Shown: positions 24,853 to 31,332 of the stretch, piece after piece
How the letters are laid out: every line of letters begins with the position of its first letter
Position numbering within the stretch: the first letter of the stretch is position 1
Assembly (NCBI GenBank): GCA_009922615.1
Contig: RFVF01000030.1
Location: forward strand, 1 to 54,391
Reading direction: 5' to 3'
DNA length: 54,391 nucleotides
From: Pseudomonadota bacterium
GTDB lineage: Bacteria; Verrucomicrobiota; Verrucomicrobiia; Limisphaerales; SXTU01
The notes under the pieces: generated by a model
What the model was told of the DNA's origin: nothing
Database searches by the model: none
What the model saw: only the letters and a program-made list of their open reading frames with translations
Made by a program: the position numbers and the translations under genes

Positions 24853-25806
24853 TCACGCGGACTTGCGCCGCCACTCAACCTTCGGCGGTTCGGGCAGGCC
24901 CTGCGCCCGCAGCGCCGTGCGGAAGTGCATCTTGCCCACGCGCGCCAGTGTCGCGACGCCGTGCTGCTCGACGATCTGCTTCGCGACCTTGTCCACGGCA
25001 GCGGACGCGCCTTTCGGCAGTTCGACGCCGAGTTCGCGACCCATCGCGGCGAGCTTCGTCACGAATTCGTGCCGCGCCAAAATTGACGCCGCCGCCACCG
25101 CCAAGTCCGCCTCGGCCTTGTGGCGTTGCACGATTTTCAACTTCAGCCCCCGCGCTTTCGCCTCGCGCGCGACCGTCGTTTCCGTCGCGGCAAACTGGTC
25201 GATAATGGCGTGCGCCGGCGGCGGGTTCAGGTGATGGGCGGGATCGAGCAGCGCCAGGATGGAGCTGACGTGGCCCTTGGCGAGCAGCGGGTTCAAGCTG
25301 CGTTCCTGGCGGTAGCGTTGGTTGTAATTCACGCCGCCGAGCGAGAGCACTTCACTGTGGCAGCCGGGCGTTTCGCGAATCACCTTCGCGAGATCCGCGA
25401 TGCGCCGGTCGCTGCCGATGTTCTTCGAGTCTTGAATGCCCGCGTCCTGCCAGGCGCGCACCACCGACTCGTTGACATACACCGCCGCCACGCACAGCGG
25501 CCCGAAGAAATCGCCCTTGCCCGATTCGTCCACGCCGATGCGTGCGACAAACATCTCCGGGTGCAAGACCGCTTCATACCCCAGCTCCGCGCGCTGTAAA
25601 ATCTCCGGCTCCAGCACAAACTCGACGAACTCCTGAGTGCCCTTGCCCTGCACGACGAGCTTGCCGCTCTCGTAGAAGACGACGTTGAGCTTGTCCTTCT
25701 CTCCGGCGAACCGCGCATAAGGCACCGCGCGCGGCTTGAACCCGTGCTCACGCAAGTGCGCGTCCAGCTTCGCAGCCTGCGCGTCGTCAAGCTTGCACGT
25801 GTGCAT
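24853..25806 (-). CDS. rnhC: Ribonuclease HIII
   Basis: 317 residues, normal for RNase HIII, which cuts the RNA strand of RNA-DNA hybrids. The N-terminal TBP-like substrate-binding domain (about residues 1-90) is present (FYESGKLVVQGKGTQEFVEF), which separates it from RNase HII. The catalytic domain begins with GVDESGKGDFFGPLCVAAVY, holding the Asp-Glu pair, followed by IQDSKNIGSDRRI, HAIIDQFAA and ADLAVAAASILAR. ATG 25806 is the start: the upstream frame to 25914 reads through a heptamer repeat (WTLDF, ESRNSKLETA) and is repeat translation rather than protein. The gene is divergent from mutY, and the repeat lies between them where promoters should be. Confidence 0.95.
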   Translation of the reverse strand: MHTCKLDDAQAAKLDAHLREHGFKPRAVPYARFAGEKDKLNVVFYESGKLVVQGKGTQEFVEFVLEPEILQRAELGYEAVLHPEMFVARIGVDESGKGDFFGPLCVAAVYVNESVVRAWQDAGIQDSKNIGSDRRIADLAKVIRETPGCHSEVLSLGGVNYNQRYRQERSLNPLLAKGHVSSILALLDPAHHLNPPPAHAIIDQFAATETTVAREAKARGLKLKIVQRHKAEADLAVAAASILARHEFVTKLAAMGRELGVELPKGASAAVDKVAKQIVEQHGVATLARVGKMHFRTALRAQGLPEPPKVEWRRKSA

Positions 25807-25828
25807 TGTCAGCGGTTTCACCGGGGCA

Positions 25829-25926
25829 GTTTCGAGTTTGGAGTTTCGACTTTCGAGTGCAAACTTCTGCGCGTGCCGCGCGCAAAAGTCCAAAGTCCAA
25901 GGTCCAGGGTCCAAGGCCCAAGGCCT
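25829..25926. repeat. Heptamer-repeat inverted element between rnhC and mutY
   Basis: The left arm (25829-25863) is five 7-bp units: GTTTCGA, GTTTGGA, GTTTCGA, CTTTCGA, GTGCAAA. After 21 nt of GC-rich spacer, the right arm (25885-25926) is six units: AAAGTCC twice, AAGGTCC, AGGGTCC, AAGGCCC, AAGGCCT. The arms are roughly complementary (GGACTTT on the opposite strand of the right arm against GGAGTTT/CGACTTT). It fills the space upstream of both divergent genes. Confidence 0.8.
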
Positions 25927-27027
25927 GGCCGCGAATGCGCATCATCGGCCATTCCGCAGCTGCTCCTCAAGTGGTTCGCCGCGAACGCGCGCGACTTGCC
26001 GTGGCGGCGCACGCTCGATCCTTACGCCATCTGGGTCAGCGAAATCATGCTCCAGCAAACGCAGGTGAGGACGGTCATCCCATATTGGGAACGCTGGTTG
26101 CGTGAGCTGCCAGATGTTGCCGCGCTCGCCACTGCGCCGGAGCAGCGCGTGCTGAAACTCTGGGAAGGCCTCGGCTACTACACCCGTGCGCGCAACTTGC
26201 AAAAGGCCGCGCAGCAGATCATGCGCGACCACGCCGGCCAGTTCCCGTGCGACTTTGAGGCCATTCTCGCGCTGCCCGGCGTGGGTCGCTACACCGCCGG
26301 TGCGATTGCCAGTATCGCCTTCAACCAGCCCACCTCCATCCTCGACGGTAATGTCATCCGCGTGCTCACCCGCCTCTTCGCCATCGCCGGTAATCCGCGC
26401 GACAAGGCGACGAACGAACGGTTGTGGCAACTCGCCGACCAGCTCGTTCAAGTTGCATCCAGCATCCAGCATCCAGCATCCAACATCCAGCATCTGGTCT
26501 TCGCTGGCAGTTGCTCCGTTCTAAACCAGTCGCTCATGGAACTCGGCGCGACCGTCTGCACGCCGCAGAATCCGCAGTGTGCGGCGTGTCCCCTGCGTGA
26601 CCACTGCGTCGCGCACCACACGGGCCGCGTGGCTGAATTGCCGGCGCTCCCGCCGCGCGCCGCCGCCACGCGCCGAGAGTTTTACACCTTCGTCATCGAA
26701 CACGATGGGGAATTTCTCGTCACTCAACGGCCCAGTGGTGGCGTGAACGCAGGCCTGTGGGAATTTCCGAATCTCGAAGTCACCGGCAGACATCGGACAC
26801 CGACGGCCACGTTGAAGGAATTGCTCGGCCTCACCGCCGCGTGCGCAGCGTTTGCATCCCTCACACACTCCATCACCCGCTACCGCATCACCCAGCGGGC
26901 GTTCCGCACGCGTGTCCGTCGCCGCCCCGCGCTAACGCCTGCGAGCCGTTGGCTACCGCTTGAAGAACTTCATCGGCTGCCGTTCACCAGCGCGCATCAG
27001 CGATTGCTCGCTCAACTCGCGGCGTGA
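25873..27027 (+). CDS. mutY: A/G-specific adenine glycosylase MutY (start uncertain)
   Basis: 384 residues if GTG 25873 is used. MutY removes adenine mispaired with 8-oxoguanine. Visible: NARDLPWRR, SEIMLQQTQV with the catalytic Glu, helix-hairpin-helix LPGVGRYTAGAIASIAF, catalytic Asp in ILDGNVIRV, the [4Fe-4S] cluster motif CTPQNPQCAACPLRDHC, and the C-terminal NUDIX-like domain (EFLVTQRPSGGVNAGLWEFP). Two things are odd. First, no ATG lies in frame near the conserved start; GTG 25873 would add repeat-coded residues, while ATT 25951 would give a normal-length N-terminus. Second, residues from the CATCCAG heptamer array (26456-26497) are inserted just before the SLMELGATVC segment, where family members have a short loop. 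Both may be tolerated, as all catalytic residues remain. Confidence 0.9.
   Translation: MPRAKVQSPRSRVQGPRPGRECASSAIPQLLLKWFAANARDLPWRRTLDPYAIWVSEIMLQQTQVRTVIPYWERWLRELPDVAALATAPEQRVLKLWEGLGYYTRARNLQKAAQQIMRDHAGQFPCDFEAILALPGVGRYTAGAIASIAFNQPTSILDGNVIRVLTRLFAIAGNPRDKATNERLWQLADQLVQVASSIQHPASNIQHLVFAGSCSVLNQSLMELGATVCTPQNPQCAACPLRDHCVAHHTGRVAELPALPPRAAATRREFYTFVIEHDGEFLVTQRPSGGVNAGLWEFPNLEVTGRHRTPTATLKELLGLTAACAAFASLTHSITRYRITQRAFRTRVRRRPALTPASRWLPLEELHRLPFTSAHQRLLAQLAA
26456..26497 (+). repeat. CATCCAG heptamer array inside mutY
   Basis: Six consecutive 7-bp units: CATCCAG three times, CATCCAA, CATCCAG, CATCTGG. The 42 nt equal 14 codons, so the array leaves the reading frame unchanged and encodes an Ile-Gln-His-Pro/Asn-Ala-Ser type stretch between the LADQLV helix and SLMELGATVC. 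There is no second, inverted arm, unlike the other elements. Confidence 0.8.
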
Positions 27028-27031
27028 CGGT

Positions 27032-28153
27032 TTAAGCGGCCGCCCGGATCACCGCCTCGACCACCCGCTCCGCAGTCAGACTTTTCATGCAGCGGAAATC
27101 CACCGGACACTCGCGCAGGAAGCACGGCGCGCAGGGCACTTTGCCGCTCAGGAGAACGTGACGTGCGTCTCCGGGCAGGCCGGGACCGGTCAGCTCTGCC
27201 GAGGTGCTGCCGAACAGCGCGACGACGCGCGTGCCGGCCGCCGCCGCCACGTGCATCGGGCCGGTGTCGTTGGTGAGCACCACGCGGCAGGCCCGGAAGA
27301 CAGCGCACAGTTCGCGAAGCGAAGTGCGGCCGGCGAGGTTGGTGATGATGCTGGATGACGGTGCGAACACGGAGGCGATGTCCGCCGCGAGCCTTGCGTC
27401 AGCCGGGCCGCCAAAGATGACAAAGGAACAGTTGAGCCGCGCTTGGAGCGCCTTCGCAGTCGCGATGAAGCGCTCGGCGGGCCAGCGCTTCGCCGGGCCG
27501 TATTCCGCGCCCGCGTTGAGGCCGATGAGCAGGCTGTCAGGCAGATTGAACTTCGCCTTCACCGCTGCGACCTCGGCATTGGTGACAGTGACGAGCGGCG
27601 CGATCGGCACGAGCTTCGCGCCCAGCGTCGCGACGAGGTGCAGGTAGTGAAAGAGATGGTGACTTTCCGGCGACGGAGTGGCGACCTCTGAGGCAGCGAG
27701 GCTTGAGTCGGCTGTTAGTTGCCGCACTTCCGCCACGCTGCGCTTGCGCATCCGCGTGACGTTGGTGCGCCACGGCACGGCTTGCGTGAGCAGCCAGCCG
27801 CGCCAGCCGCCCGCGTAACCGATGCGCCGGGGAATCCCCGCAAGCCGCACTTCCAAGCCGGACCGCAGCGAGTTTGGCAGCACCAGCGCGGTGTCGAACG
27901 ACTTTGCGCGTAACCGACGCGTAACGGTAAACACGCCTTCCTTCGCCGCGAAGGTGATGACTTCGTCCACGGCCGTATGCCCGACCCACAAGTCCGCCAA
28001 CTTCTCGTGCGTGAGCAGCGCGAGATGCGTGTCGGGCAAGGCCTCGCGCAACTGCAGTAGCGCGGGCGTGGTCATCACGGCGTCGCCGAGCCAGTTCACG
28101 CCGCGCACGAGGAGCCGGCGCGGGGCAGCGGGAGTTGAAGTGGGTGCGGTCAC
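27032..28153 (-). CDS. waaF: ADP-heptose:LPS heptosyltransferase II type (GT9)
   Basis: 373 residues from GTG 28153. GT9 family glycosyltransferase adding heptose to the LPS inner core at the cytoplasmic face. Motifs: VRGVNWLGDAVMTTPALLQL at the start, VLPNSLRSGLEVRLAGIPRR, GLNAGAEYGPAKRWPAERF, TNDTGPMHVAAAAGTRVVAL with FGST, and the Cys cluster CAPCFLRECPVDFRC typical of WaaF-type proteins. A short Ser/Ala-rich insertion (TADSSLAASEVATPSPES) sits in the middle loop, near residue 150. It lies next to lpxL-type and lpxK genes on the same strand, across a hexamer-repeat element. mutY converges from the other side, with 4 nt between stops. Confidence 0.9.
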   Translation of the reverse strand: MTAPTSTPAAPRRLLVRGVNWLGDAVMTTPALLQLREALPDTHLALLTHEKLADLWVGHTAVDEVITFAAKEGVFTVTRRLRAKSFDTALVLPNSLRSGLEVRLAGIPRRIGYAGGWRGWLLTQAVPWRTNVTRMRKRSVAEVRQLTADSSLAASEVATPSPESHHLFHYLHLVATLGAKLVPIAPLVTVTNAEVAAVKAKFNLPDSLLIGLNAGAEYGPAKRWPAERFIATAKALQARLNCSFVIFGGPADARLAADIASVFAPSSSIITNLAGRTSLRELCAVFRACRVVLTNDTGPMHVAAAAGTRVVALFGSTSAELTGPGLPGDARHVLLSGKVPCAPCFLRECPVDFRCMKSLTAERVVEAVIRAAA

Positions 28154-28169
28154 GGCGCAGCAACGATGC

Positions 28170-28272
28170 GAAGAGGATTAAGAGCACGAGCAAGATTCCT
28201 GCATCGCGCGGAGCTGGGTCGGCTTCGACTCGGGCATGTAATTGAAATCTTAATCCTGATCCTCATGCTTCT
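28170..28272. repeat. Hexamer-repeat inverted element between waaF and the acyltransferase gene
   Basis: The left arm (28170-28199) reads as 6-bp units GAAGAG, GATTAA, GAGCAC, GAGCAA, GATTCC. The right arm (28247-28272), read on the minus strand, is AAGCAT, GAGGAT, CAGGAT, TAAGAT. The arms are imperfect inverted copies about 47 nt apart. The right arm contains the last codons and stop of the acyltransferase gene, which therefore ends in His-Glu-Asp-Gln-Asp. Confidence 0.65.
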
Positions 28273-29164
28273 TTTCCACCCGCCACTTGCCTTCCTTCCA
28301 GCGGTTATGCACCCAAAACCAGTTCGCCGGGTCGCGACGGATGGCAGCTTCGTAGGCGCGGTTCATGTCGCGGGCGATGTCCTCCGTCGCGCGTGGTTTA
28401 CCGGCCTGGTGCGTGGGAATCTCGTCACCCACCTCGATCCGCCATCGTCCTGGCGCGGTGCGAAAACAAATCACCGGAAAGAGCGGGCAGCCATACCGCA
28501 GCGCCAGCACGCCGGCTGCGACGCTCGTGGAGCAGTCGCGCCCAAAGAATGGCAGTCGCGCGCCGCGATCGCCCGCGTGCTGGTCGGTGAAGAGGCCGAG
28601 CATCATGCCTGGACGATGCATCGCGGCCTTGAGTGCTTCGGCATCCGTGCGGCGTTCGAAGTAGAGGGTGCCGGACTGCTCGCGCAGGCTTTGCATCACA
28701 CGCGTGAGCCCCGCCTGGCGCAGCCCGCGATACGTGGTGGCCGTCTGATACCCCGGCACGAACAAGCCCGTCCGACCGAGCAGTTCGAAATTCGCAAAGT
28801 GTCCGAGCGCACACACAACACTGCGCCGCGGCTCACCCGCACCTGTCTGGGGAAACTTTTCCGCGCCCACAAACTCCGTCACGGCCCGAATGCCCGCGGC
28901 GTCAAAGCTCGCGGTTTTGACCGCGCAGGCGAAGCTCTCGCCGATGCGCCGGAAATTTTCGCGTGCCAGAGCGCGAACCTCGACAGCGGACTTCTCTGGG
29001 AAACACATCGCGAGGTTCTGCGCCGCCATCTTCCGATGCCGCGCATCCAGCAGATAAGCCAGCCCGCCAAACGTCCGCCCCAGCCACGCCACAGCTCCAA
29101 GCGGCAGCGCCTGCAGGAATGCGATGACGACACGCGCCAGAGTGGTGAGTAGAAAGTCCGTCAC
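28250..29164 (-). CDS. LpxL/HtrB-type lipid A late acyltransferase
   Basis: 304 residues from GTG 29164. Lysophospholipid/lipid A acyltransferase family: an N-terminal membrane helix (about 4-30), the HX4E catalytic motif in GHFANFELLG, and further family text (YRGLRQAGLTRVM, GLFTDQHAG, FFGRDCSTSVAAGVLALRYG, NWFWVHNRWKEGKW). It transfers a secondary acyl chain onto the Kdo-lipid A precursor at the inner membrane. The start is chosen because GTG 29164 overlaps the lpxK stop (GTGA), a coupling signal; TTG 29173 is three codons upstream. The last residues (HEDQD) and the stop come from the adjoining hexamer repeat. Which acyl position it serves is open, as only one such gene is present here. Confidence 0.85.
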   Translation of the reverse strand: MTDFLLTTLARVVIAFLQALPLGAVAWLGRTFGGLAYLLDARHRKMAAQNLAMCFPEKSAVEVRALARENFRRIGESFACAVKTASFDAAGIRAVTEFVGAEKFPQTGAGEPRRSVVCALGHFANFELLGRTGLFVPGYQTATTYRGLRQAGLTRVMQSLREQSGTLYFERRTDAEALKAAMHRPGMMLGLFTDQHAGDRGARLPFFGRDCSTSVAAGVLALRYGCPLFPVICFRTAPGRWRIEVGDEIPTHQAGKPRATEDIARDMNRAYEAAIRRDPANWFWVHNRWKEGKWRVEKKHEDQD

Positions 29165-30249
29165 TTGAAACAAATCTGCCGCACGCAGTCCTGAAAGTCT
29201 TTTGCGCCAGCGAGGATTTTGATCTCCACGCGCATGAAGCAGATGGGCAGGTCGCGCCGGTCAATCTTCGGGAAGCGCACGGCGTCCTTCTGCGTGGTGA
29301 CGATGATTTCGGCCTGACGCTTCTTGGCGCGGTTGATCGCGTTGAGCACCTCCTGCTGCGTGAAGCGGTGGTGGTCGGCGAAGCGCTTCGAGTAAACCAG
29401 CTCCGCGCCTTGCTTCACCAGACTGCTCTCGAAGCTCTCCGGCTGCGCGATGCCGCTGAAGCTCGCCACCTTCTTGCCCTTGAGGAAGCTCAGGTCCATC
29501 CGCTCGCCCGTGAACACGTCCTCGAAGTAGAGCGGGTGGTGAACGCACTCGACGACGCTGGCCTTCGGGTTGTGCTTGGCAATGCGGGCGCGGAGCCGCG
29601 CGGTGTCGCCATCGCTCTTGGTGAGGAAGATGACGCTCGCGCGGTCGAGGTGGGATGGCGGCTCGCGCAACGTGCCGCGCGGGAGCAGGTGCTCGTTGCC
29701 GAAGGGCTGCTGACAATCCACCAGCACGATGTCCTTCCGGCGACCGCGCAGGTTCCAATACTGGTAGCCATCGTCGAGCAGCAGGGTGTCGCAGCCGAAC
29801 TTCGCGATGGCGTAGCGGCCGGCCTTCACGCGATCCTTGTCCACGAGCACGACGACGTCCTTCAAGTTGCTCGCGAGCATGTAGGGTTCGTCGCCGGCGG
29901 TCTCGGAGTTGAGGAGCAGATTCTTGCCGTCAGATACAATGCGCGGGGGCGTGGTGTCCTCGCGGAGGAGCAGCTTGTTCAACAAACGTGGCGCGAGCGG
30001 GCCAGGGTTGGAGCGGTAGCCACGCGAAAGGATCGCAACTTTGCGTCCGGCATCGGTCAGCTCACGCGCGAACTTCTCGACGACGGGTGTCTTGCCCGTG
30101 CCGCCGACCGTCACGTTGCCCACAGCAATAACCTGCACGCCGAGCGTGGCGTCGCGCAGCGCGGCGCGCTTGCCCTTGCGTTGCTCGAAGATGACTTCGA
30201 GCACGAAGGTTTCGGCGTCTTCGGTCCAGTTGCGGAGCGTCTCGCGCAT
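29161..30249 (-). CDS. lpxK: Tetraacyldisaccharide 4'-kinase
   Basis: 362 residues. LpxK phosphorylates the 4' position of the lipid A disaccharide at the inner membrane. The P-loop [20 protein letters not shown] is intact, followed by [41 protein letters not shown] (DDGxQ motif, catalytic Asp) and [14 protein letters not shown]. The N-terminus is somewhat short and less hydrophobic than in proteobacterial LpxK, which carries a membrane helix. The ATG at 30249 is the only good start. It overlaps the downstream acyltransferase gene by 4 nt. The upstream space to lpxI carries a heptamer-repeat element. Confidence 0.93.
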
Positions 30250-30282
30250 GGTGCGCGGAGTGTGCCTGCGGGGAGGATGAGG

Positions 30283-30380
30283 GGAAAGTGATTAGTAATT
30301 AGTGATTCGTCTGAAGCCGCTGATTTGGATGTTCAGCAGTGCTCGCTCCAGCACCAAATACTAATCACTAATTACTTTCC
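30283..30380. repeat. ATTAGTG-type heptamer inverted element between lpxK and lpxI
   Basis: The left arm 30283-30307 contains GTGATTA, GTAATTA, GTGATT after GGAAA. The right arm 30357-30380, read on the other strand, gives GGAAA followed by GTAATTA, GTGATTA, GTATT. The arms differ by two substitutions and one gap, and are about 50 nt apart. It is strikingly A/T-rich in a high-GC setting. The lpxI stop codon (30374-30372) lies in the right arm. Confidence 0.8.
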
Positions 30381-31202
30381 GTCTCCGACCGTGACCAGCG
30401 AAAGGCCATGCTGGCGCACAAGTTTCTCCATCACGTCCTGCTCCAGCAGCAGCGTGCGCCCGGACTCGAAGGCGAGCACGCGGACGCCGCTGGCAGCGCA
30501 GACTTCGAGCGTCTGCGGGCCGACGCAAGGGATGTCGAAGCGGAGGTCGTGTTGTTCCTTGGCCACTTTCACCGCGACCGCTCCGCCGCTTTTGCCGGCG
30601 AGTTCACCGCCGCGTGCGAGGGCTTTGTCCGTGCCCTCGAAACCCTCGACGGCCAGCACGGTGCCACCTTTGACCACCACGGTCTGGCCGATCTCGAGCC
30701 GGGAAACTTCCTTCGCGATGCGGAAGCCAAAGCGCACGTCAGCGGCTTCGTCGTCGCTCAACTGCTTGCCCAACGCGAAGCCGGGCCCGGCCATGAGCGG
30801 TTGCAACCATGGCACAGCGGAGATGAGTTCCACGCCGTCCTTCTTTAACTCGTCAGCGATGCCGCCAAAAAGGGTGTGGGCGTTCTTCTCCTTCAACCGC
30901 AGCAGCAGCGCGACCGCACGCAGATCGGGCCGGAGGTCGAAGAGGTTTTTCGGCGCGATCTGCCCGGCCATGACGCAGTGCTGCACACCGCGCTCGGTGA
31001 AGGCGGAGATCAACTTGCCAAGCTGGCCCACGCGCAGCCAGACGAGATCATCCACCAATTGCGCCAGCGCGGGATCAGTCTCGCCCTCGAAGGCGACGGC
31101 GACGAGGCGGTTGACGCCCATCGCGCGGGCTTGCTTGGCAAGCAGGAGCGGCAGCGTGCGGTTGCCGGCTATGAGGCCCAGCGTCTGAATGGCAGCGGAC
31201 AC
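30372..31202 (-). CDS. lpxI: UDP-2,3-diacylglucosamine pyrophosphatase LpxI (DUF1009)
   Basis: 276 residues from GTG 31202. LpxI hydrolyses UDP-2,3-diacyl-GlcN to lipid X and UMP in bacteria lacking LpxH. Family text: LGLIAGNRTLPLLLAKQARA, VGQLGKLISAFTERGVQHCV, MAGQIAPKNLFDLRPD, ELISAVPWLQPLMAGPG, VKGGTVLAVEGFEGTDKALA, DIPCVGPQTLEVCAASGVRV and LAFESGRTLLLEQD. GTG 31202 fits both the family start and a promoter (CTGACA, 17 nt, TACGCT) ending 6 nt upstream. Longer upstream frames run through the hexamer palindrome. Same strand and pathway as lpxK, but with its own promoter and a repeat element between them. Confidence 0.93.
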   Translation of the reverse strand: MSAAIQTLGLIAGNRTLPLLLAKQARAMGVNRLVAVAFEGETDPALAQLVDDLVWLRVGQLGKLISAFTERGVQHCVMAGQIAPKNLFDLRPDLRAVALLLRLKEKNAHTLFGGIADELKKDGVELISAVPWLQPLMAGPGFALGKQLSDDEAADVRFGFRIAKEVSRLEIGQTVVVKGGTVLAVEGFEGTDKALARGGELAGKSGGAVAVKVAKEQHDLRFDIPCVGPQTLEVCAASGVRVLAFESGRTLLLEQDVMEKLVRQHGLSLVTVGDGK

Positions 31203-31208
31203 GGGAGG

Positions 31209-31237
31209 AGCGTAGCGGGTGGCCGGGCGGTTGTCAG
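31209..31237 (-). promoter_or_regulatory. Predicted promoter of lpxI, leaderless layout
   Basis: Minus strand CTGACA (31237-31232), 17-nt spacer, TACGCT (31214-31209), 6 nt, GTG 31202. One of the best matches in the window, with the -35 box matching 5 of 6 consensus bases. Confidence 0.55.
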
Positions 31238-31250
31238 GGAGGGAAAGTGG

Positions 31251-31332
31251 GAGGAGCAGGATTAGGATCAGGATCACGAGCACGAGGAACGCCGCGCTCC
31301 TGCTCGTGATCCTGATCCTAATCCTGCTCCTC
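31251..31332. repeat. Perfect 32-bp inverted repeat of hexamers between lpxI and the ThuA gene
   Basis: Arms 31251-31282 and 31301-31332 are exact reverse complements, separated by 18 nt. The left arm reads in 6-bp steps: GAGGAG, CAGGAT, TAGGAT, CAGGAT, CACGAG, CA. It lies between two divergent promoters (31209-31237 and 31348-31376) and would form a very strong cruciform or hairpin. Confidence 0.9.

Follow-up and report, generated by a model that had tools for sequence, protein, structure and literature searches.

Repeat families are usually recognised by the sequence that their copies have in common, and the 54,391-nt stretch of DNA analysed here (the window; positions 1-54,391 of contig RFVF01000030.1, from the metagenome-assembled genome (MAG) G000) raises the question of whether elements can be related when their repeated sequence is not. 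An earlier note, made from the sequence of the window alone, described four elements within 5.5 kb in which degenerate 6- or 7-nt tandem units form two inverted arms around a spacer, together with a one-armed array inside mutY, and it proposed a common generating process. We give an even chance to the explanation that these are foldback elements, likely non-autonomous and mobile, in which both arms are jointly altered while the plan of the element endures: slippage would proceed about 7 nt at a time, and template switching would act between the arms. The exchanged part is the unit and not the whole element, and the layout thus seems to outlive its sequence. Direct support comes from multi-copy families, a single loop core that carries many arm units, arms that match in nearly every copy of that core, changes of unit at the same site and one inverted loop.

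A loop core and its arm units in Bacteroides

The clearest separation of layout from unit is found in Bacteroides, where a conserved 22-nt loop core is common to five loops lying in unrelated flanks. A search with the core alone, allowing at most 3 mismatches, was positive in five of seven genomes (27, 25, 25, 6 and 30 matches, 113 in all, the 27 being those of B. oleiciplenus YIT 12058, G030), with 0 matches for the reversed control. We read 70 of the 113 copies, some of them mutually orthologous between genomes, and found an inverted arm pair with a score of at least 12 in 69 of the 70. A period of 7 fits the arms best in 62 copies and a period of 8 in seven, five of the latter showing a clear 8-nt unit and two a weak one. 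Grouped by hand, the 25 copies of Bacteroides sp. C.10_2 (G031) carry nine arm units, and those of B. oleiciplenus comprise 20 of ATTAGTG type, four of AAATTGA type, one AGCTACA, one AAGTATT-like copy and one without a unit. The mean arm match is 24.6 within a copy versus 10.6 between copies, a value reached in none of 5,000 shuffles; in just 25 of the 70 copies does no other arm match better than the copy's own partner, in our reading because many copies have the same unit. The units themselves are linked in a one-substitution network: their mean nearest-neighbour distance is 1.11, compared with 1.46 once the letters are shuffled, and 7 of 500 such shuffles give a value no higher.

Orthologous copies place the change of unit at standing sites. 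In three comparisons (L383/L364 versus L396, L363 versus L367 and L354 versus L404) flanks and core are kept and the unit has changed, two of the sites differing at 2 of 7 positions and one by unit length, so that the earlier note's picture of one layout with differing units is borne out both within a genome and site by site. In another comparison, L376 versus L369, the arms are identical and the loop between them is exactly inverted, with otherwise only 3 substitutions in 522 bp. Unless it is an assembly flip, this is a sign of recent arm-to-arm exchange, an event of the kind of switching or inversion between arms; it is the one direct trace of the template switching that the earlier note had offered as an example. 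Eight orthologous Bacteroides pairings match on both flanks; in two of them, L376 versus L369 (with perfect arms) and L383/L364 versus L396, the orientation of the loop with respect to the flanks is reversed.

Elements of the window and their counterparts in the genus

Four sites in the window's genus behave like the Bacteroides sites with changed units, as judged from G000 and 10 relatives, one genome per species and largely MAGs. The array within mutY (26455-26494, plus strand) is a near-perfect, in-frame single arm of period 7 (GCATCCA x5.7; Tandem Repeats Finder score 73), just as the one-armed form had been described. A period-7 array with a score of at least 11 occupies the same codon region in seven of the ten genomes with a complete gene, G000 included; the unit of the six others differs from that of G000, and the units by species include GCATCCA, TTACGCA, CGAATTA, CTCTCCA and TTCACTC. 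The reading frames remain open despite this variation, and the units of near relatives, typed by eye, are 1-2 of 7 positions apart. Slippage of the array by one unit would shift the frame, and an anti-mutator gene could in this way become switchable.

Element 4 (31251-31332), upstream of lpxI, is a hexamer foldback of period 6 with 36-nt arms (31251-31286 and 31297-31332) that are 97% complementary around a 10-nt loop, and its folding as single-stranded DNA reaches a z-score of -13.27 against dinucleotide shuffles. Hexamer elements occupy this site in five of the 11 genomes, with own-arm scores of 33.5, 11, 23.5, 11 and 32 (mean 22.2 versus 15.2 between species). The arms that score 33.5, 23.5 and 32, those of G000, G007 and G004, are each a different hexamer string, G007 and G004 having long near-perfect arms of other hexamers. 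Element 3 (30283-30380), downstream of lpxI, is an ATTAGTR foldback with arms at 30283-30303 and 30360-30380, a 56-nt loop and a folding z-score of -4.67; the lpxI stop codon sits within its right arm, and among plasmids the element found no match. By eye, its site has ATTAGTR arms in four of the 11 genomes and ATTCAGT arms in two; G009 carries an unrelated hairpin family there, G001, G003 and G006 have no periodic element, and the site of G007 is ambiguous.

Element 1 (25828-25925), between the starts of rnhC and mutY, has two inverted arms of degenerate heptamers with period 7, an AGTTTCG type at 25828-25856 and an AAAGTCC/AAGGTCC type at 25885-25925. It was recovered as a two-armed pair by the array-pair scan (score 10) and folds with a z-score of -3.98. 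Its arms have drifted apart to separate units, and a counterpart with arms CGAGTTT and AGTYCAA lies upstream of mutY in G002, G008 and G009. Element 2 (28170-28272) is a weak two-armed hexamer element that overlaps the 3' end of the lpxL-like gene. It holds a perfect 10-nt inverted pair, AGGATTAAGA, but was detected neither by the repeat scan nor by the two-armed scans, and its folding is no better than that of shuffles (z -0.79, 50 of 200 equally good). Arrays and folding therefore uphold three of the four two-armed elements (1, 3 and 4), while the strength claimed for the remaining one falls away. Read directly from the sequence, elements 2 and 4 are both built of GATTAG/GATCAG/GAGCAC-type hexamers, so the statement that the unit differs each time was mistaken for these two.

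The reality of element 2 would thus rest on its orthologues. At the junction between the lpxL-like and heptosyltransferase genes, five of the 11 genomes have by eye arms of GGATAGA, two have hexamers of GGATTA type, one has CCAATGM units, another has just one arm, of AGTCAGG, and the remaining two are mixed; own-arm scores average 14.35 versus 9.3 between species (10 genomes).

The genes around these sites are rnhC, encoding ribonuclease HIII (24853-25806, minus strand; TIGR00716, 228 bits), mutY, for the A/G-specific adenine glycosylase (25942-27027, plus strand; TIGR01084, 324 bits), a heptosyltransferase II-like gene (27032-28153, minus strand; TIGR02195, 193 bits) and lpxK (29161-30249, minus strand; TIGR00682, 181 bits), all above cut-off, together with the lipid A acyltransferase-like (lpxL-like) gene (28250-29173, minus strand; PF03279, 137 bits) and lpxI (30372-31202, minus strand; PF06230 and PF17930).

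Periodic arrays and repeat families across genomes

To place the window in its genome, we scanned a sample of 1,154,613 bp of the 5.52-Mb host assembly (the window and 60 further stretches) for arrays of periods 3-24 with a score of at least 13, with one Markov shuffle of the sample as control. The sample holds 49 period-7 arrays, whereas the shuffle yields 1 array in total, which establishes the excess over shuffled sequence that the earlier note had named as decisive. Periods 4, 5, 8, 10 and 13 give 0, 1, 0, 0 and 0 arrays, and periods 3, 6, 9, 11 and 12 give 10, 9, 3, 4 and 10. The grouping by unit that had been suggested distributes the 49 arrays over 34 unit classes, and the proposed scan for inverted partners finds ten inverted and no direct pairs of period-7 arrays at most 110 nt apart. 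At the same distance the inverted and direct pairs number 3 and 3 for period 6, 3 and 0 for period 8, 2 and 2 for period 9 and 3 and 0 for period 11, with 0 inverted and 1 direct in the shuffle. Long inverted repeats number 44 versus 4 in the shuffle, other families accounting for most of them. The intergenic share of arrays (14 of 49 versus 6.15 expected) was not used as evidence because the gene caller over-extends starts. Elsewhere in G000, further inverted repeats (L031, L067, L074, L087 and L091; unit types CACAGAG, CACAGATGAA and CACGGATGAA), their units about 8-11 nt long, likewise have the two-armed layout.

The unit pattern of element 3, ATTAGTR, gives 86 overlapping matches in G000 at up to 3 mismatches versus 41 for the reversed pattern, a weak control because reversal leaves the word, read in a circle, almost unchanged; over the 11 genomes of the genus comparison the counts are 2-122, and 1-68 with the same weak control. 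In the G000 sample the pattern occurs at 15 places, mostly two-armed, with loops that by eye appear unrelated. Beyond the phylum, a scan run without a control found two-armed ATTAGTR in at least 119 stretches of genome contigs, among the matches listed from Verrucomicrobiota, Bacteroidota, Gemmatimonadota, Bacillota and Patescibacteria. Of 387 evenly sampled Verrucomicrobiota genomes, just one, the window's own, contains the exact two-armed pattern, so the spread of the family is patchy; the direct-orientation control is likewise present in one, as a single long perfect array, and this pair of searches therefore does not demonstrate an inverted excess. Viral contigs contain one two-armed ATTAGTR match (L298, an IMG/VR contig) and none to the CCAATGM pattern.

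CCAATGM forms a second family, with 116 matches in G002, 28 in G005, 22 in G010, 1-6 in each of five other genomes and 0 in the control; G000, G001 and G003 have none. From G002 we retrieved 36 stretches and parsed 21 two-armed copies, both arms being spaced 7-7-7-4-7-7, a pattern seen by eye in an unfiltered listing that afterwards served as the parsing template. In three G002 elements (L141, L163 and L170) a second hairpin family, of the CCCTCTCCC...GGGAGAGGG type, is nested inside the loop. The shared loop core, the 7-7-7-4-7-7 architecture and the 86 ATTAGTR matches (against the weak control of 41) indicate that copies descend from common elements, and the earlier note's preference for a generating process over descent is to that extent not supported.

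Fourteen CCAATGM sites of G002 have both flanks in the G000 sample, and six of them look empty in G000, an empty site being one where the gap is more than 100 bp shorter and holds neither an array nor an inverted pair with a score of at least 9. Inverted pairs of that score are found at five of the 14 G000 sites, not above the background of 99 in 393 gaps. The comparison of filled and empty sites, which the earlier note had proposed between strains, was made here between G002 and G000, whose flanks are too diverged for a target-site duplication to be read.

A proposed rewriting of both arms, its alternatives and related systems

We propose that replication slippage, moving about 7 nt at a time, could spread a changed unit along one arm, that template switching or inversion between the arms could carry it into the second, and that some trans-acting activity may mobilise the elements; lone arrays within genes, as in mutY, would represent the slippage component of this process on its own, with the second arm absent. 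That slippage makes the step, that arm-to-arm copying spreads the unit and that the mobilising activity acts in trans are all parts we infer. The elements do have traits of miniature inverted-repeat transposable elements (MITEs), in that they are short, end in inverted repeats and exist in several copies.

Several results weigh against this reading. Apart from the nested insertions of another hairpin family, the loops of the 21 parsed CCAATGM copies have no long common sequence, so that whole-element copying is demonstrated only in Bacteroides, and the CCAATGM arms show no covariation (within-copy identity 0.711 versus 0.739 shuffled, with 2,000 of 2,000 shuffles at or above the observed value), although the within-copy figure is biased downward because the copies were chosen by one good arm. 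That no target-site duplication could be read in the diverged flanks counts on the same side, as does the lack of a hot-spot effect: an array of period 6-8 is present at one of the 14 G000 sites versus 0.93 expected. The unit at one site can change a great deal, by up to 5 of 7 positions among the mutY units (typed by eye). Arms can also cease to match, as in G008 and G009 at the lpxL-like site (scores 7.5 and 8.5) and in element 1, whose units are unequal (AGTTTCG versus GGACTTT, the reverse complement of AAAGTCC; top match score just 10). One genome of the L376/L369 pair is a MAG, so the flip may have arisen in assembly; the unit network favours stepwise drift over random replacement only modestly; and a search for a mobilising enzyme, which covered PF01797 alone, gave no candidate in G000.

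The main rival to joint rewriting of the arms is a role at the RNA level, because the Bacteroides copies adjoin gene 3' ends: hairpins would be selected there as RNA or single-stranded DNA stem-loops, with any stem that pairs being sufficient, the stems drifting by compensatory change and the core being kept for its function. Around 30 Bacteroides loci, some mutually orthologous, 39 neighbouring gene ends are 3' and 21 are 5' (12 convergent and 3 divergent arrangements), with 35 of the 39 3' ends but 10 of the 21 5' ends at most 33 nt from the element edge, and in many copies the arms are near-perfect complements. A need for pairing, however, leaves the fixed period of 7 nt unaccounted for; in the window, elements 1 and 4 both lie between divergent genes, and the CCAATGM arms are not matched by position. 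We consider such selection possible though unlikely. Rfam returned 14 matches, all to generic microRNA models under their gathering scores. A reading as intrinsic transcription terminators was rejected, since a U-tract is present at only 20 of 138 ends of Bacteroides core copies and no terminator-like site (GC-rich stem and U-tract) was found at the window elements.

A stronger form of the earlier note's idea holds that the arms are made from scratch by a copying activity whose intrinsic step is about 7 nt. In its favour are a period that is constant and a sequence that is free in two phyla, and the composition of the 5' arm, in which G exceeds C on each strand in 65 of the 70 Bacteroides copies (L345-L414) and 15 of 19 units, C exceeding G in three copies and two units. 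Yet the common core and the family architecture speak for descent, the step has a simpler origin in ordinary slippage, and we know of no candidate enzyme, the search having been limited to PF01797; we consider de novo writing very doubtful. In a related version, a new class of bacterial element would be inherited as a layout and not as a sequence, an activity telomerase-like in its effect writing any short word and its complement into the two arms in steps of about 7 nt and being able to replace the word at a standing site while the core stays; we regard this as distinctly unlikely.

Ordinary heptanucleotide simple repeats that are inverted neighbours by chance would fit a survey, cited in PMC4679880 and PMC4692102, in which, in the excerpts available, heptanucleotides predominate among the long simple repeats of most genomes; Xanthomonas, as excerpted from PMC4692102, even has inverted pairs of GGGAATC arrays. 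This may hold for single arrays. As an account of the elements it is very improbable, given that close period-7 pairs are inverted without a direct counterpart, the very excess that chance neighbours should lack, and that the core copies are two-armed with matching units.

That the elements are REPINs, made of repetitive extragenic palindromic sequences (REPs) and moved by RAYT (Y1) transposases, gains some support from the host genome, which also contains hairpins of GTAG type, the tag that marks REPs, and from Y1_Tnp, which is present in eight of the 11 members of the genus and in 10 of the 16 genomes that bear elements. The layout, too, is alike, with inverted ends around a variable spacer (excerpts of PMC3116915). 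But PF01797 (Y1_Tnp) was not found in G000, which is 92.6% complete, nor in two other genus members (3 of 11 in all), nor in six of the 16 element-bearing genomes (two of the 16 apparently being G005 and G007 again), several of these genomes being incomplete MAGs. Furthermore, Y1 genes show no enrichment of arrays in their vicinity (22 arrays in 91 kb, compared with 216 in 1155 kb and 89 in 395 kb), and the arms are by eye tandem words, not tagged palindromes. RAYTs are accordingly not favoured as the mover, and this origin is the least probable of those considered.

If both arms are indeed rewritten together, these elements would make concerted evolution visible within one hairpin. Because elements that are kin by core or flanks differ in arm sequence, programs that detect repeats by sequence similarity would likely break such families up or overlook them. 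The Bacteroides core family offers a natural assay of why long simple repeats in bacteria favour seven nucleotides, and equally suits the question of how the arms of long inverted repeats stay alike.

Among known systems, eukaryotic foldback elements have long inverted ends of short tandem repeats around a loop and are larger than the present elements; to our knowledge, exchange of the unit in both arms of sister copies has not been described for them. Our literature search found no paper on unit exchange in elements of the kind analysed here, and the unit and core strings were also unmatched. REPINs, as characterised in excerpts of PMC3116915, are short, dispersed, mostly extragenic two-ended hairpins with conserved ends and a less conserved spacer, their REPs bearing a GTAG tag (excerpt of PMC3733652). 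The present elements likewise have two inverted ends that form a hairpin with a spacer, but these ends are tandem 6-8-nt words, the word varies between copies, and Y1_Tnp went undetected in 6 of 16 bearers. Heptanucleotide repeats (in Calothrix; TAACTGA in Beggiatoaceae; GGGAATC in Xanthomonas, there with some inverted pairs according to PMC4692102) are also intergenic tandem 7-nt units, and the excerpted parts of PMC4679880 and PMC4692102 report a range of often mixed heptamers in Microcystis and relay polymerase contact length as a proposed cause of heptanucleotide prevalence. As far as these excerpts go, such repeats involve one or a few units per genome, whereas here there are dozens, many of them two-armed, and one core carries many units; a lone array without an obligate inverted partner is not what 69 of 70 core copies present. 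The BrickBuilt MITE of Porphyromonas gingivalis, finally, is described in excerpts of PMC4596501 as an element that lacks coding capacity, is dispersed between genes and has both tandem repeats and inverted ends, but it combines a fixed 23-nt repeat with small inverted-repeat ends, whereas in the elements described here the inverted arms are themselves the repeats, and their unit changes.

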